The translations under genes were made by a program, and so were the position numbers. Below are positions 19,085 to 55,622 of a DNA stretch of 64,000 nt, one piece after another; position 1 is the stretch's first letter; the number at the start of each line of letters is the position of its first letter. Origin of the DNA: Enterovibrio calviensis DSM 14347 (GTDB lineage: Bacteria; Pseudomonadota; Gammaproteobacteria; Enterobacterales; Vibrionaceae); the NCBI RefSeq assembly GCF_000621165.1, contig NZ_JHZA01000012.1:1-64000 (forward strand). The letters run 5' to 3'. The notes below the pieces were generated by a model. It ran no database searches, had not been told where the DNA came from, and was given only the letters and a program-made list of their open reading frames with translations.

Positions 19085-19161
19085 GGCTACGTAGCTCAGT
19101 TGGTTAGAGCACATCACTCATAATGATGGGGTCACAGGTTCGAATCCCGTCGTAGCCACCA
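19085..19161 (+). tRNA. tRNA-Met (CAT), copy 1
   Basis: 77 nt starting GGCTACGTAGCTC and ending GTAGCCACCA. The anticodon loop CTCATAA gives CAT and the acceptor stem GGCTACG/CGTAGCC pairs fully. The fully paired first base pair points to elongator rather than initiator Met. First gene of the tRNA operon. Confidence 0.96.
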
Positions 19162-19204
19162 TTCTTTTTCAACGTGCAACGCTTTCTTTAGAAAGCAACA
19201 ATAT

Positions 19205-19289
19205 GCGGAAGTGGCGAAATTGGTAGACGCACCAGATTTAGGTTCTGGCGCCGCAAGGTGTGAGAGTTCAAGTCTCTCCTTCCGCACCA
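19205..19289 (+). tRNA. tRNA-Leu (TAG), copy 1
   Basis: 85 nt with a long class II variable arm. Acceptor GCGGAAG/CTTCCGC, anticodon loop TTTAGGT giving TAG, encoded CCA. Confidence 0.96.
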
Positions 19290-19325
19290 TATTGAAGACA
19301 TCATGCTTGATAGCGTGATAGTCAT

Positions 19326-19400
19326 TGGGATATCGCCAAGCGGTAAGGCAGCGGCTTTTGATGCCGCCATTCCCTGGTTCGAATCCAGGTATCCCAGCCA
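19326..19400 (+). tRNA. tRNA-Gln (TTG), copy 1
   Basis: 75 nt with acceptor TGGGATA/TATCCCA, anticodon loop CTTTTGA giving TTG, and terminal GCCA. It differs from copy 2 by one compensated base pair in the acceptor stem. Confidence 0.95.
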
Positions 19401-19411
19401 TATTTTGGCAT

Positions 19412-19488
19412 GGCTACGTAGCTCAGTTGGTTAGAGCACATCACTCATAATGATGGGGTCACAGGTTCGAATCCCGTCGTAGCCACCA
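19412..19488 (+). tRNA. tRNA-Met (CAT), copy 2
   Basis: 77 nt, identical to the Met gene at 19085-19161. Confidence 0.96.
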
Positions 19489-19568
19489 TTTGATTCGAAA
19501 GCCTTTGGCTTTCAAACAGACTGACACTGCCACGTGTTATAAAGCGCTAGCTTTAGTCTGAAAGATTT

Positions 19569-19653
19569 GCGGAAGTGGCGAAATTGGTAGACGCACCAGA
19601 TTTAGGTTCTGGCGCCGCAAGGTGTGAGAGTTCAAGTCTCTCCTTCCGCACCA
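19569..19653 (+). tRNA. tRNA-Leu (TAG), copy 2
   Basis: 85 nt, identical to the other three Leu(TAG) genes of this operon. Confidence 0.96.
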
Positions 19654-19730
19654 TATATCTTGTTTCTCTTATCGTTTAACGACGAAGAGAAGGTTTCAGA
19701 CAAGACTAAAAAACTGAAACAACTAGGATT

Positions 19731-19815
19731 GCGGAAGTGGCGAAATTGGTAGACGCACCAGATTTAGGTTCTGGCGCCGCAAGGTGTGAGAGTTCAAGTC
19801 TCTCCTTCCGCACCA
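19731..19815 (+). tRNA. tRNA-Leu (TAG), copy 3
   Basis: 85 nt, identical to the other Leu(TAG) genes; only the spacers differ. Confidence 0.96.
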
Positions 19816-19886
19816 ATCCTCTTGCTCTTTATGCCTGCCTTCTGGCAGAATAAGGAAATCAGGCAAGTAAAAACTCTGATAACAAT

Positions 19887-19971
19887 GCGGAAGTGGCGAA
19901 ATTGGTAGACGCACCAGATTTAGGTTCTGGCGCCGCAAGGTGTGAGAGTTCAAGTCTCTCCTTCCGCACCA
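19887..19971 (+). tRNA. tRNA-Leu (TAG), copy 4
   Basis: 85 nt, identical to the other Leu(TAG) genes. Four copies of one isoacceptor in tandem suggest dosage amplification. Confidence 0.96.
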
Positions 19972-20007
19972 TATTTAAAGAGTCATGCTTAATTGCGTGA
20001 GTTCTGT

Positions 20008-20082
20008 TGGGGTATCGCCAAGCGGTAAGGCAGCGGCTTTTGATGCCGCCATTCCCTGGTTCGAATCCAGGTACCCCAGCCA
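20008..20082 (+). tRNA. tRNA-Gln (TTG), copy 2
   Basis: 75 nt, identical to copy 1 except the acceptor stem is TGGGGTA/TACCCCA: a G-C pair replaces the A-T pair on both strands. Last gene of the operon. Confidence 0.95.
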
Positions 20083-51838: not shown

Positions 51839-53125
51839 TTACATAACAAATTTCAGCAAGAACAGCGCAGCTAGAACCCAAATACTAATAGGTACGTCAC
51901 GTCCCTTACCACTAAATGCTTTGATTGCGCAGTAAGAGATAAAGCCCAAACCAATGCCATGGGCAATGGAATAGGTCAATGGCATCAGCAAGCAGACCAC
52001 AACAACTGGTGCCGCTTCAGTTAGGTCACGCCAATTTACGCTGACCAGACCTGACATCATCAAAATCGCAACGTAGAACAGCGCGCCTGCAGTTGCATAA
52101 GCCGGAACCATGCCAGCCAGCGGTGCGAAGAACAATGCCAGCAAGAACATGCCACCAACAACAACCGCGGTCAGACCGGTACGGCCTCCAGCGGCAACGC
52201 CTGACACACTTTCAATGTATGACGTGGTGTTTGATGTACCCAGAACCGCACCCACAGTGGTTGCAGTACTGTCCGCCAATAGCGCACGGTTCAAACGAGG
52301 CAGTTTGCCATCTTTGTCCATCAATTCCGCTTTTTGCGCCACACCCACCAAGGTGCCTGCAGTATCAAACAGATCGACAAACAAGAAAGCGAAAACAACA
52401 GAAATCATAGCAACATCAAATGCGCCAGATAAATCCATCTGCATAAAGGTCGGAGCAAGGCTTGGCGGCGCTGACATAAGGCCAGCGTATTCCACATTGC
52501 CTGTGACGACCGCAATCGCAGTAACAATAAGGATGGCGATCATCACCGCGCCTTTGATACCGCGGTTAACCAAACCAATGGTCAGGAAGAAACCCAGTGC
52601 AGCCATAGCAGGGGCAAAAGAAGACAAATCACCCATTGATACCAGTGTTGCTGGATGCGCAACCACTATGCCGGAGTTTTGCAGCGCAATCAGCGCCAAA
52701 AACATACCAATACCTGCAGAGATACCCGTTCGAAGAGAAAGTGGGATGGAGTGAATGATCAACTCTCGAACTTTAAATAGGCTCAGAGCGATAAAGCACA
52801 GGCCCGACAGGAATACCGCACCCAACGCAACTTGCCATGAGTAACCCATCTGGAAAACGACGGTATAAGTAAAGAAAGCATTAAGGCCCATACCTGGCGC
52901 TTGTGCGACCGGGTAATTGGCGACCAATCCCATTACAAAACAACCGATGGCCGCAGCCAAACAGGTGGCAACAAACACAGCACCGCGATCCATGCCTGTT
53001 TCAGACAAAATCGCAGGGTTAACAAAGATGATGTAAGCCATTGTCAGAAAGGTGGTAACCCCTGCAATAACTTCGGTGCGTATATCAGTACCTTGCTCTT
53101 TTAATTTAAAAAGACGCTCAAGCAT
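51839..53125 (-). CDS. NCS2-family purine permease (AzgA type)
   Basis: This 428-residue protein has about 12-14 membrane segments. AzgA/GhxP signatures are TEVIAGVTTFLTMAYIIFVNPAIL at the start, ANYPVAQAPGMGLNAFFTYTVV, LFVDLFDTAGTLVGVA and SGVAAGGRTGLTAVVVG. It imports hypoxanthine, guanine or adenine by H+ symport; the exact base is not readable. The paired PurR operator upstream and gpt downstream support a purine salvage unit. Confidence 0.93.
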   Translation of the reverse strand: MLERLFKLKEQGTDIRTEVIAGVTTFLTMAYIIFVNPAILSETGMDRGAVFVATCLAAAIGCFVMGLVANYPVAQAPGMGLNAFFTYTVVFQMGYSWQVALGAVFLSGLCFIALSLFKVRELIIHSIPLSLRTGISAGIGMFLALIALQNSGIVVAHPATLVSMGDLSSFAPAMAALGFFLTIGLVNRGIKGAVMIAILIVTAIAVVTGNVEYAGLMSAPPSLAPTFMQMDLSGAFDVAMISVVFAFLFVDLFDTAGTLVGVAQKAELMDKDGKLPRLNRALLADSTATTVGAVLGTSNTTSYIESVSGVAAGGRTGLTAVVVGGMFLLALFFAPLAGMVPAYATAGALFYVAILMMSGLVSVNWRDLTEAAPVVVVCLLMPLTYSIAHGIGLGFISYCAIKAFSGKGRDVPISIWVLAALFLLKFVM

Positions 53126-53163
53126 GGCTTTCGTTCCTTGGAAAGTATGTGTCTGAAAATATT

Positions 53164-53191
53164 ACGCAAACGTTTGGCTAAACGTTTGCGT
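53164..53191 (-). promoter_or_regulatory. Paired PurR operator upstream of the purine permease gene
   Basis: ACGCAAACGTTT (53164-53175) and AAACGTTTGCGT (53180-53191) form a perfect 12-bp inverted repeat around GGCT. Each arm is most of a PurR box (consensus ACGCAAACGTTTNCGT), so two facing, closely packed operators lie about 40-65 bases before the permease start. A possible promoter (TGGAAA, 17 bases, TAATAT) lies just upstream on the minus strand. Confidence 0.75.
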
Positions 53192-53430
53192 CTGAATTTG
53201 ACGCGAATATTACTCGCCACTTCACAAAATTTCCAGTGTGAATTACATCACTTACTGGTCGATCGGTGGCAGATTAAACGACTTCTCGTCTTCCTGACGA
53301 CATTGCCTGTTTAAGACTCAAATTCTAGAGTGATTTATTGATTAATAAACGAACAGCGGCCAAAGCTGTGATCAACGTTGTCTGCTTCATCAATAGACTG
53401 AGAGGCACTGCAAGAGACGGAAATCGAGAT

Positions 53431-53456
53431 AAAAAAAACGCCACTAGATAGTGGCG
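53431..53456 (-). terminator. Terminator of the minus-strand candidate RNA
   Basis: CGCCACTA-ga-TAGTGGCG, a perfect eight-pair stem, is followed on the minus strand by T8. No annotated minus-strand gene lies upstream of it before pepD, so it implies an unannotated transcript. Confidence 0.8.
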
Positions 53457-53537
53457 CCAGATCAAAAATCAAATTCCAAATCGGAACGAAAATATCTGTT
53501 AGAGCGGGGTAATGTATGTATCAAGCAAGAATTTCAA

Positions 53538-53633
53538 TTACTTGCTTTTGTATCCGAACGTCGCCGGATAACGAAAATTGGCGGTGTATACGGAACCACG
53601 GTTCCAGTATTGGCTAGCAGAACTGCCTTTCAT
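53538..53633 (-). CDS. Putative 31-residue small protein inside the candidate RNA
   Basis: ATG at 53633, TAA at 53538. The peptide begins MKGSSASQYW and ends FGYKSK. It is basic, aromatic-rich (three Tyr before the final FGYKSK, one Trp, two Phe) and has no membrane segment. GAGGT at 53645-53641 lies seven bases before the ATG, a better ribosome-binding site than many genes in this window. Two of the RNA hairpins fall inside the ORF. I do not recognise the protein. It could be the protein part of a dual-function regulatory RNA, or chance. Confidence 0.5.
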   Translation of the reverse strand: MKGSSASQYWNRGSVYTANFRYPATFGYKSK

Positions 53634-53781
53634 CAGTTGTACCTCAAAATAATTCGATAGGAATAAATGCAGCTTTAATAAAGCTCGGTTCCGTGGAGAC
53701 GAATGATTTCGGGTTTATCCATAAACAAATGAAGCGCACAGCTATGTCTTTGGGCTCACTGCCCATCCAGAAGACGGTGAG

Positions 53782-53810
53782 ATAATAGCCTATACGTTAT
53801 TTTATTACAA
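53782..53810 (-). promoter_or_regulatory. Predicted promoter of the minus-strand RNA
   Basis: TTGTAA (complement of 53805-53810), a 17-base spacer, TATTAT (complement of 53782-53787). Confidence 0.5.
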
Positions 53811-53814
53811 ACAA

Positions 53815-53836
53815 AAAAGAGATCTAAATCACATTA
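53815..53836. promoter_or_regulatory. CRP-like binding site between two divergent promoters
   Basis: 18 of 22 positions match the CRP consensus. The right half TCACA is perfect and the left half is AGAGA in place of TGTGA. Its centre (53825.5) is about 50 bases from the predicted start points on either side. Confidence 0.55.
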
Positions 53837-53840
53837 ATGC

Positions 53841-53869
53841 TTGATGTCGCATTTTTATGTAATTAAATT
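53841..53869 (+). promoter_or_regulatory. Predicted promoter towards pepD
   Basis: TTGATG (53841-53846), a 17-base spacer, TAAATT (53864-53869). TATGTA at 53856-53861 is an alternative -10 that would put the CRP site at about -42. Confidence 0.45.
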
Positions 53870-53872
53870 ACA
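53858..53872 (+). promoter_or_regulatory. HexR-type operator
   Basis: TGTAATTAAATTACA is a perfect 15-base palindrome and matches the HexR consensus TGTAATwwwATTACA (HexR controls central sugar catabolism in Vibrio and Shewanella). It overlaps the predicted -10 of the promoter facing pepD. Confidence 0.6.
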
Positions 53873-53876
53873 CAAA

Positions 53877-54136
53877 TAGTGCTGAGTAATTGCACAGAGA
53901 TAAAGACATACGCATGGCAACGAAAGTGCTATCGCATGCATTGCCTCTTGAATAGCCCACTCACGGACTCCGTTTCAGTTACACCGTATGTGCAGTCATG
54001 AATAGTGCAAAACACGGAGTCACAGCTCAAGATGTGGGCTATTAGGCCTATCTGCAGCGATATGCTTTTAACAAGGCATACTTTTCCGTTACAAATTCTG
54101 TTAGGTTAATTGCTTGCAGCACTGCTGCCTTTTTCA
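53877..54136 (+). ncRNA. Candidate structured leader or small RNA upstream of pepD
   Basis: A long hairpin spans 53951-54043. Outer arms AATAGCCCAC (53951-53960) and GTGGGCTATT (54034-54043) are perfect, and inner arms GACTCCGT (53966-53973) and ACGGAGTC (54014-54021) are perfect. A smaller TATGC/GCATA hairpin follows at 54061, then an intrinsic terminator at 54116-54134, only 27 bases before the pepD start. It may be a separate small RNA or a 5' leader with attenuation. Two tiny ORFs (13 and 15 codons) end exactly in the left and right arms of the long hairpin. Confidence 0.45.
54116..54134 (+). terminator. Possible terminator/attenuator before pepD
   Basis: GCAGC-act-GCTGC followed by CTTTTTC. 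The stem is short (five pairs), so it may be partial. Confidence 0.45.
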
Positions 54137-54161
54137 TTCCATGTTTTTCTGGAGATAGCCT

Positions 54162-55622
54162 GTGTCAGAAATTAGTCAATTGTCGCCACAACCTGTGTGG
54201 CAGTTTTTCGACAAAATTTGCTCTATTCCTCATCCTTCAAAGCACGAAGATCAACTCGCTCAGTTCATTGTTGACTGGGCAACGACTGAGGGACTGTCGG
54301 TTAAACGCGACGACATAGGCAATGTCATCATCAAAAAGCCTGCCACCTCAGGCATGGAAAACCGCAAAGGTGTCGTACTACAAGCACACATCGATATGGT
54401 GCCGCAAAAGAACGAAAACACTGATCATGATTTCGCTGTCGATCCTATCCGTCCTTATATCGATGGCGAATGGGTGACTGCCGATGGCACCACGCTAGGT
54501 GCTGACAACGGCATGGGAATGGCAACTTGTCTTGCTGTACTTGCCGCGAGTAATATCGAACATGGCCCGCTTGAAGTCCTATTAACGATCGACGAAGAAG
54601 CGGGTATGACGGGTGCTTTTGGCCTAAAAGAAGGCTGGCTAGACGGCGAGATCTTGCTAAACACCGATTCCGAGCAAGAAGGTGAAATCTACATGGGTTG
54701 TGCGGGCGGTGTAGACACTGCCATCGACTTCAAGCTAGAGCGAGAAGATCTCGGTGAAGGCTATGTCGGTAAAACCCTTCAAATCAAAGGCCTAAAAGGC
54801 GGACACTCAGGTGTTGATATTCACACTGGTCGCGCTAATGCCAACAAACTGCTCGGACGCTTTCTTGCTGGGCACGCAAAAGAATTAGGTCTGCGTCTTC
54901 TATCTATTCGCGGTGGTACGCTTCGCAACGCCATTCCACGTGAAGCCTTTGCTAACTTGGCCGTGCCTGCTGAGAACGTGGATAAGCTTGTTACATTGTT
55001 CTCGCATTTTGAAGCCTTGCTCCAACAAGAGTTAGGCGCGGTGGAAACGTCGATTGCTCTGGCAGTGCTAGATCTTAACATTGAAGAACAAGCACTGACG
55101 TCAAACGTGCAAGACCGCATTATTGCGACCATCAACGCTTGCCCTAATGGCGTGATCCGCATGAGCGATGATATCAAGGGGGTGGTTGAAACCTCATTGA
55201 ACCTAGGTGTCATAACTACCGAAGACAATACAATGACACTGCTATGTTTGATTCGCTCATTAGATGACAGCGGCCGAAGCTACGTAGAAAGCATGCTGCG
55301 CTCTTTAAGCACATTGGCCGGTGCAGAAGTCACATTCTCGGGAGCATACCCTGGCTGGAAACCCAACCCAGATTCCGAAATCATGCATGTCTTCCGCGAC
55401 ACCTACAAAGACATCTACGGACGTACGCCTGATATCATGGTCATTCACGCTGGCTTGGAGTGTGGTTTGTTCAAAGAACCTTATCCAAACATGGACATGA
55501 TCTCTTTCGGTCCGACGATTAAGTTCCCTCACTCACCTGATGAGAAAGTGAACATCGCGACTGTTGGCCTATTCTGGGAACAGATGATTGCGATGCTAAA
55601 AGCGATACCTGTTAAAGCTTAA
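54162..55622 (+). CDS. pepD: Aminoacyl-histidine dipeptidase (peptidase D)
   Basis: This 486-residue M20-family metallopeptidase cleaves X-His and other dipeptides. It has the first zinc motif VVLQAHIDMVPQ, the bridging aspartate in TLGADNGMGMA, the catalytic glutamates in LLTIDEEAGMTGAFGL, and GLKGGHSGVDIHTGRANA. The HAGLECGLF and FPHSPDEKV segments close the metal site. The start is GTG with GGAG seven bases upstream. A long structured leader with CRP and HexR sites precedes it. Confidence 0.96.
   Translation: MSEISQLSPQPVWQFFDKICSIPHPSKHEDQLAQFIVDWATTEGLSVKRDDIGNVIIKKPATSGMENRKGVVLQAHIDMVPQKNENTDHDFAVDPIRPYIDGEWVTADGTTLGADNGMGMATCLAVLAASNIEHGPLEVLLTIDEEAGMTGAFGLKEGWLDGEILLNTDSEQEGEIYMGCAGGVDTAIDFKLEREDLGEGYVGKTLQIKGLKGGHSGVDIHTGRANANKLLGRFLAGHAKELGLRLLSIRGGTLRNAIPREAFANLAVPAENVDKLVTLFSHFEALLQQELGAVETSIALAVLDLNIEEQALTSNVQDRIIATINACPNGVIRMSDDIKGVVETSLNLGVITTEDNTMTLLCLIRSLDDSGRSYVESMLRSLSTLAGAEVTFSGAYPGWKPNPDSEIMHVFRDTYKDIYGRTPDIMVIHAGLECGLFKEPYPNMDMISFGPTIKFPHSPDEKVNIATVGLFWEQMIAMLKAIPVKA

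Follow-up and report, generated by a model that had tools for sequence, protein, structure and literature searches.

An Enterovibrio orthologue of the dual-function RNA VcdRP with HexR-type operators and a conserved GGA leader

Introduction

VcdRP of Vibrio cholerae (Vcr082) is a dual-function RNA, and both of its arms have been worked out in that species (PMC8672173). The gene lies on the minus strand between vc2278 and vc2279, and its 306 nt contain an ORF at 104-193 and a conserved stretch at 223-232 that ends in CCCC (PMC8672173). The two flanking genes are listed as 'membrane protein, putative' and pepD, respectively (PMC3136459). Expression of vcdRP is repressed by CRP, and the encoded VcdP binds citrate synthase (PMC8672173, Venkat et al. 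2021). A CRP ChIP site, GGTGATTAAAATCACA, is located at VC2278<>VC2279 (PMC6050953). The seed acts on ptsG, treB, nagE and ptsHI, and was described as kept 'in all tested species', which were seven Vibrio species (PMC8672173).

VvdRP of Vibrio vulnificus is a vcdRP orthologue in another species, with its expression followed by RT-qPCR; its host is a Vibrio rather than an Enterovibrio, and the portion of that paper considered here contains no leader or operator analysis (PMC9737408). SgrST of enteric bacteria works alike, with a small ORF upstream of a seed directed against PTS mRNAs, but it has another regulator (SgrR) and another protein target than VcdRP and is likened to it by function (PMC8672173). 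Spot 42 (spf) is also a CRP-repressed carbon sRNA (PMC8672173). In E. coli, both SgrS and Spot 42 bind CsrA (PMC10729762).

Results

The window carries a vcdRP orthologue

We analysed a window of 64,000 nucleotides from Enterovibrio calviensis DSM 14347 (contig NZ_JHZA01000012.1, positions 1 to 64,000). A first-pass annotation of this DNA had guessed that an unannotated transcript on the minus strand was a carbon-controlled dual-function RNA like VcdRP. The guess was supported by the locus, the strand, the order of parts, the CRP site and a VcdP-like ORF. The RNA is a member of the known vcdRP family. Taken whole, the best explanation, that 53431-53872 on the minus strand is an Enterovibrio vcdRP orthologue acting as in V. 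cholerae, is almost certainly correct.

The locus and strand are those of V. cholerae: the gene is read from the minus strand and is flanked by the counterparts of vc2278 and vc2279. The vc2278 counterpart is a Xan_ur_permease protein (51839..53125, minus strand; PF00860, 173.2 bits, cut-off 27). The vc2279 counterpart is a pepD-type dipeptidase (beta-Ala-His; 54162..55622, plus strand; TIGR01893, 600.9 bits, cut-off 343.75), and its best match among named genomes was Enterovibrio sp. ZSDZ42 (96 percent). The CRP-like site, promoter, small ORF, ACCCCG stretch and terminator that the first-pass annotation had named were present in the sequence at the positions it gave, each of them on the minus strand. 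They comprise a CRP-like site, TGTGATTTAGATCTCT (53818..53833), which agrees with the consensus at 8 of 10 positions and precedes the -35 start by 23 bp; a promoter with a -35 box TTGTAA (53805..53810) and, 17 bases away, a -10 box TATTAT (53782..53787), with a predicted start near 53775; a small ORF of 31 codons, MKGSSASQYWNRGSVYTANFRYPATFGYKSK (53538..53633, stop at 53540-53538), whose ATG follows GAGGT (53645-53641) and seven further bases; the stretch ACCCCG after the ORF (53510-53505); and an intrinsic terminator, GGCGCCACTATCTAGTGGCG plus T8 (53431..53458). Promoter-like sites in 52000-55500 were not above chance, with 3 found and 5.1 expected in shuffles. The case therefore has to rest on conservation, which carries it.

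The window shares with V. cholerae VcdRP the locus, the strand, the order of parts, the CRP site, the small protein, the CCCC seed and the terminator. V. harveyi (L074) and V. splendidus (L041), both in the alignment of PMC8672173, have a VcdP-like ORF in the same location. From the neighbours, strand, part order, CRP site location and the ORF shared with these two species we therefore conclude, on sequence comparison, that the homology to VcdRP holds. Distances agree as well: from the A of ATG to the last C of the seed there are 127 bases in the window and 128 in V. cholerae (from the numbers in PMC8672173). For the Vibrio fujianensis RNA, predicted from the nearer of two -10 candidates, the ATG is at +105 and the T-run ends at +304, compared with 104 and 306 in V. 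cholerae. The predicted window RNA of about 345 nt exceeds the 306 nt of V. cholerae by 39 nt. The window leader exceeds that of V. cholerae by about 40 nt, with a predicted ATG near +143 rather than at +104; VcdP has 31 residues rather than 29, and the right half of the CRP site is weaker than in the V. cholerae ChIP site. In 74/77 loci the CRP-like site precedes the -35 start by 22-23 bp.

No Rfam family covered the window locus at the curated cut-off, and a lax search gave a single match there, which scored 17.4 bits where the cut-off is 43. Spot 42 is a different RNA. By analogy with V. cholerae, CRP-cAMP would repress the promoter, and the RNA would end at the intrinsic terminator and be translated into VcdP.

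A conserved GGA leader precedes vcdP

The predicted leader begins with an inverted repeat (GTCTT...AAGAC, 53746..53775, minus strand, as are all leader features) that is paired in the minimum free energy (MFE) structure of the leader alone but not of the whole RNA. It is followed by hairpin h1, GUUU-AUGGAU-AAAC with an ANGGAN loop (53713..53726), by an arm AAUCAUUCG (53700..53708) that in the leader MFE can pair with CGAAUUAUU beside the Shine-Dalgarno (SD) sequence, and by element h2, CGUCUCCACGGAACCGAG, with CANGGA (53684..53701). A second arm, CGAAUUAUUUUGAGG (53642..53656), recognised from the leader MFE and locus comparison, lies next to the SD of vcdP, GAGGU (53641..53645). Across relatives we counted loci as distinct if they differed anywhere between 150 bases ahead of the ATG and 200 bases past it, which left 77. 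Two GGA motifs, 25-29 bases apart, were present in all 77 distinct leaders, by motif patterns written after inspecting these same leaders. L017 was counted among the 77 here and in operator scoring, but alignments A1 and A2 exclude it because it nearly duplicates L005; alignment A3 held 38 of the 62 Vibrio-type leaders.

The four pairs of h1 were kept in 44/44 distinct rows of alignment A1, while controls with the stem slid along the alignment were at most 54 percent paired. Two of the pairs had changed on both sides, in 14 cells; this number of double-change cells (3.6 in shuffles) and the covariation score exceeded 500/500 shuffles, the rows being related. The count of doubly changed pairs (2) was itself reached by 384/500 shuffles and that of pair types (4) by 490/500. 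The h2 motif, CUCCANGGAACYGAG, has a variable N (A 59, C 12, T 4, G 2 at the 77 distinct loci) and shows no covariation because its stem is invariant. An A stands two bases before the h1 GGA in 76/77 leaders (C in P. damselae), and A-N-GGA in h2 was found in 77/77. The Photobacterium halotolerans clade served as an independent check on these patterns: h2 was exact in 4/4 copies, and a new hairpin, GCAC...GUGC, carries A-N-GGA at the expected place of h1 (by eye).

CsrA-family proteins bind ANGGAN hairpin loops (PMC7652899). The genome of the window encodes CsrA, and the two GGA sites suit a CsrA dimer. Folding of whole RNAs and of leaders gave no thermodynamic proof of both hairpins. In whole-RNA folding the h1 stem had a probability of at least 0.5 in 33/77 loci and GGA2 was open in 15/77. 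When leaders were folded alone, the stem reached at least 0.5 in 39/62 Vibrio-type and 0/15 Enterovibrio-type leaders, and GGA2 was open in 21/62 and 0/15, respectively. We regard the leader as a candidate CsrA-responsive gate on vcdP, the boldest reading of these data and a view that folding supports only partly.

The main rival to a CsrA gate is a plain cis structure, in which the leader has no protein ligand and holds the vcdP SD until ribosomes or Hfq open it. This is possible, although on balance we doubt it. At 59/77 loci a segment that starts immediately 5' of h2 and runs into it (such as UUAUCGCCU) can pair with the SD (AGGUGAUAG) along 8-9 bases, a length that only 0.7 percent of shuffled SDs reach, and this pairing was predicted at a probability of at least 0.5 in 31/62 Vibrio-type leaders. 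Against a plain cis structure, the run is only 5 bases, a chance-level length, in 14/15 Enterovibrio-type leaders and the pairing reached at least 0.5 in 0/15, though another helix is possible there: in the window leader the MFE predicts NUUCG paired with CGAAN beside the SD. Among 23 Enterovibrio/Grimontia loci, counting duplicates, this helix ends in an A-U pair in 18, a U-A pair in 3 and a G-C pair in 2. Thus the same part of the leader may hide the vcdP SD in both clades. A plain cis structure also leaves unexplained why GGA is fixed at both places after a variable base, and likewise h1. The conservation of the leader suggests that it would gate VcdP translation separately from the seed.

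An upstream ORF was also considered: CGYCTCCAMGGAACYGAG can be read as RLQGTE or RLHGTE and varies at third codon positions. It was dropped because, by eye, Vibrio loci differ by one base in the frame that this stretch has with respect to upstream ATGs.

HexR-type operators in the vcdRP promoter

A palindrome upstream of vcdRP, TGTAATTTAATTACA (53858..53872, minus strand), fits TGTAATTAAATTACA, the HexR motif predicted in V. parahaemolyticus (PMC11906056). When the window was searched with TGTAATNNAATTACA, allowing up to one mismatch, 53858..53872 was the single place found in 64 kb (2 matches, since both strands were read); shuffles averaged 0.13 matches and 4/100 reached 2. The best match per promoter was 12-13 of 13 at 69/77 distinct loci, a count that includes L026, L035 and L046, where the best-scoring operator is the copy at the -35. 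The window's genome encodes HexR (NF008451, 541 bits, cut-off 296).

From the -35 onward, the sequence (for example TTGTAATTAAATTTC) forms a second, degenerate copy of the operator; in the window this is TGTAATAAAATAACG (53795..53809, minus strand), overlapping the -35 and matching 11/13. We scored it over the 8 positions outside TTGTAA. At 47/77 loci 6-7 of these positions matched, a level seen in 0.9 percent of shuffled spacers, and at 10/77 loci 5 matched. The remaining 20/77, V. splendidus type included, matched 3-4 and were no better than shuffles. In the P. halotolerans clade the -35 copy matched 12/13. Spacing was taken from 73 rows, leaving out L026, L035, L046 and L063 (wrong -35 picked). 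The operator starts 72-75 bp upstream of the -35 in 57/73 rows and 61-63 bp upstream in 16/73 (15 Enterovibrio/Grimontia rows and L056), a difference between clades of about one helical turn.

An operator that serves the divergent pepD and not vcdRP is very unlikely. It does sit in the interval that the two divergent genes share, with 290 bp between it and the pepD start. In the six loci where vcdRP is 2.1-2.3 kb from pepD (L016-L020, L036), however, the operator stays beside vcdRP; rows of the same species (L003, L017, L007, L006 and L012) scored 12-13 of 13, and L036 scored 11. None of the eight loci that initially seemed to be without vcdRP has a site of at least 12 closer than 800 bp to pepD. 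In 72 related, and hence non-independent, loci scanned along the vcdRP strand, 70 sites of at least 12/13 fell in vcdRP promoters (-35 copies included), and none was found in the 461,919 bases outside them.

HexR senses the Entner-Doudoroff intermediate KDPG. Given their conservation, HexR would bind both the upstream operator and the -35 copy of vcdRP. The position of one site over the -35 would point to repression, while in PMC11906056 HexR sites upstream were seen as activating and those downstream as repressing.

Combining promoter and leader, we tentatively propose that vcdRP serves Vibrionaceae as a carbon integrator with three inputs. CRP-cAMP, together with HexR on two operators in helical phase, would set the amount of RNA, and CsrA, bridging the two ANGGA sites, would set VcdP translation by opening or closing the SD-sequestering helix. 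If so, the cell could shift how much of the base-pairing part it has relative to the part that activates citrate synthase. The conserved operators and the structured GGA leader make the balance of the two arms directly testable. Among the matches listed in our search of openly readable main texts, none described an action of HexR or CsrA on vcdRP. PMC8672173 does not use the words leader, HexR or CsrA in its main text, and PMC7858070, on CsrA in V. cholerae, mentions neither Vcr082 nor VC2278 there. The HexR-type operators and the GGA leader with its SD-pairing segments go beyond the main text of PMC8672173, as do the diverged copies of the P. halotolerans clade and the seedless Grimontia hollisae copy described below.

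The VcdR seed and its candidate PTS targets

The VcdR seed of the window is ACAUUACCCCGC (53504..53515, minus strand), with CCCC at 53509-53506. It was found at the same place, as ACCCC or ATCCCCC, in the window and in 12/13 other Enterovibrio/Grimontia genomes. Its flank, UUACCCCG, differs from that of Vibrio-type loci, CACCCCUA. On the side of the potential targets, the genome encodes HPr, PtsG and three N-acetylglucosamine-type EIIBC proteins.

The clearest partner was ptsH. Its initiation region (...CCGGGGUAAAACAUG) forms a predicted duplex of -23.6 kcal/mol with the seed region, and 0/36 script-picked initiation regions of the window were as low. GGGG precedes ptsH in 26/26 genomes, including G068, which has no vcdRP; it is therefore not by itself a mark of pairing, and the case for ptsH rests on the flanks. 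Compared with flank-shuffled copies, the seed-ptsH duplex was better in 13/13 seed-bearing Enterovibrio-type genomes, where 0 to 14 of 200 copies were as low, and not clearly better in 10/10 Vibrio-type genomes (12 to 176 of 200). When seeds were swapped between clades, Enterovibrio-type seeds gave -16.2 with their own partners and -14.2 with the others, whereas Vibrio-type seeds gave -12.3 either way. Coevolution of seed and ptsH thus holds in Enterovibrio-type but not in Vibrio-type genomes, and we do not claim it. Judged by predicted pairing, ptsH is a strong candidate target here.

The other V. cholerae targets were examined in the same genome. Two of the three nag-type EIIBC genes have GGGG at the SD with ordinary duplexes of -10.2 and -10.1 (15 and 16 of 36 as low), and the third has no GGGG and a duplex of -15.8 (4/36 as low). 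No GGGG precedes the ptsG start in any of 24 genomes, the window's included, and the ptsG duplex in the window's genome is weak (-9.1, 20/36 as low); ptsG is thus unsupported as a target here. For treB, 0/5 EIIB proteins found in this genome reached the trehalose cut-off. The ACCCC seed would pair with SD regions of PTS mRNAs, most clearly ptsH, and this pairing would lower sugar uptake.

It seems highly improbable that VcdP alone matters, with the RNA a small mRNA and the seed vestigial. The weak ptsG match points that way, as does Grimontia hollisae, represented by both L008 and L021, in which VcdP, leader, operator and terminator are present and the CCCC seed is absent. Yet the seed holds its position in all but one genome of the Enterovibrio/Grimontia set given above, and its ptsH duplex beats flank-shuffled copies in every seed-bearing genome of the Enterovibrio-type clade. 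What G. hollisae does indicate is that the two parts are separable: having VcdP without CCCC, it shows that the two arms of vcdRP can come apart in nature. It is also an exception to the seed conservation reported for the seven Vibrio species of PMC8672173. The G. hollisae promoter has no recognisable CRP site (best 5/10).

The VcdP ORF is under purifying selection

A VcdP-like ORF of 27 to 31 codons without frameshift was present in 86/94 loci, in which some genomes occur twice; four of the eight loci without it hold a diverged vcdRP copy. By Nei-Gojobori counts with Jukes-Cantor correction, dN/dS was 0.124 for 78 pairs among 13 distinct 31-codon ORFs (Enterovibrio/Grimontia) and 0.393 for 861 pairs among 42 distinct 28-codon ORFs. 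In the other two frames pN/pS was 0.99-1.57 overall, and 1.57 and 1.45 for the 31-codon ORFs. The VcdP ORF, compared with the V. harveyi and V. splendidus loci among others, is under purifying selection. Frameshifts or drift in close relatives, which the first-pass annotation had named as evidence against its small ORF, were thus not what we observed. That the RNA alone matters, with the 31-codon ORF arising by accident within a conserved sRNA, has a negligible chance of being right: the RNA elements are also conserved at the nucleotide level, but these ratios, the peptide pattern FWN...YP..FGY kept by the diverged P. halotolerans-clade copies although the leader model missed them, and the detection of V. 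cholerae VcdP by Western blot (PMC8672173) all speak against it.

The 31-codon form of Enterovibrio and Grimontia has three extra residues, ending in K, after FGY. The genome of the window encodes GltA (TIGR01798, 789.1 bits; best solved chain 4e6y), and by analogy with V. cholerae VcdP would bind and stimulate this citrate synthase.

Distribution and diverged copies

A DNA search found the RNA in 14/61 genomes, all of them among the 18 same-genus genomes, the window's own included. At 80 pepD-anchored loci (L015-L094), which lean to close kin because they are the best 80 of 358 relatives, vcdRP was present in 76/80, 72 by the ORF and 4 as diverged copies. L024, L025, L057 and L084 had neither the ORF nor the leader motif in the stretch examined. 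A leader covariance model (R1) matched 262/329 Vibrionaceae genomes in 9/13 genera; 262 is likely a lower bound because the model misses four genomes with a diverged copy. By this model, which misses some, vcdRP is old in Vibrionaceae.

The diverged copies belong to Photobacterium halotolerans, arenosum, salinisoli and galatheae (L027, L028, L032, L033). They came to light among the eight loci in which vcdRP had at first seemed absent, four of which contained one site of at least 12/13 each. Reading downstream of the site revealed a diverged vcdRP, and thus the operator led to genes missed by the ORF pattern and the RNA model. In these copies the peptide is MNVYESTAKFWNNKGVFSGAFSYPRSFGY in 3/4, the HexR-type site lies on the -35 and a CACCCCC seed is kept.

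Neither the DNA search nor the leader model matched vcdRP in four same-genus genomes of 2.1-3.7 Mb (G002, G004, G013, G015). Their small size suggests reduced, host-bound lineages. Two genomes, G036 and G121, gave two leader-model matches each, which may stem from a second copy or from the motif in the permease leader.

Other features of the window

The permease gene downstream of vcdRP has its own leader motif, CUUUC-CAAGGAAC-GAAAG, around its Shine-Dalgarno (53128-53145, minus strand), which has a common core, CCAAGGAAC, with h2 of vcdRP. CCANGGA was found in 11/51 distinct permease leaders, 10 from Enterovibrio/Grimontia and one from Photobacterium damselae, and in 0/40 others, from Vibrio and Aliivibrio. 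The P. damselae permease leader contains the full 15-base h2 motif. Upstream of the permease, an inverted repeat, ACGCAAACGTTTAGCCAAACGTTTGCGT (53164-53191, minus strand), was flagged as terminator-like; it looks like paired PurR boxes, which it may be. Elsewhere in the window, a cluster of eight tRNA genes occupies 19085-20079 on the plus strand, several of them with identical scores.
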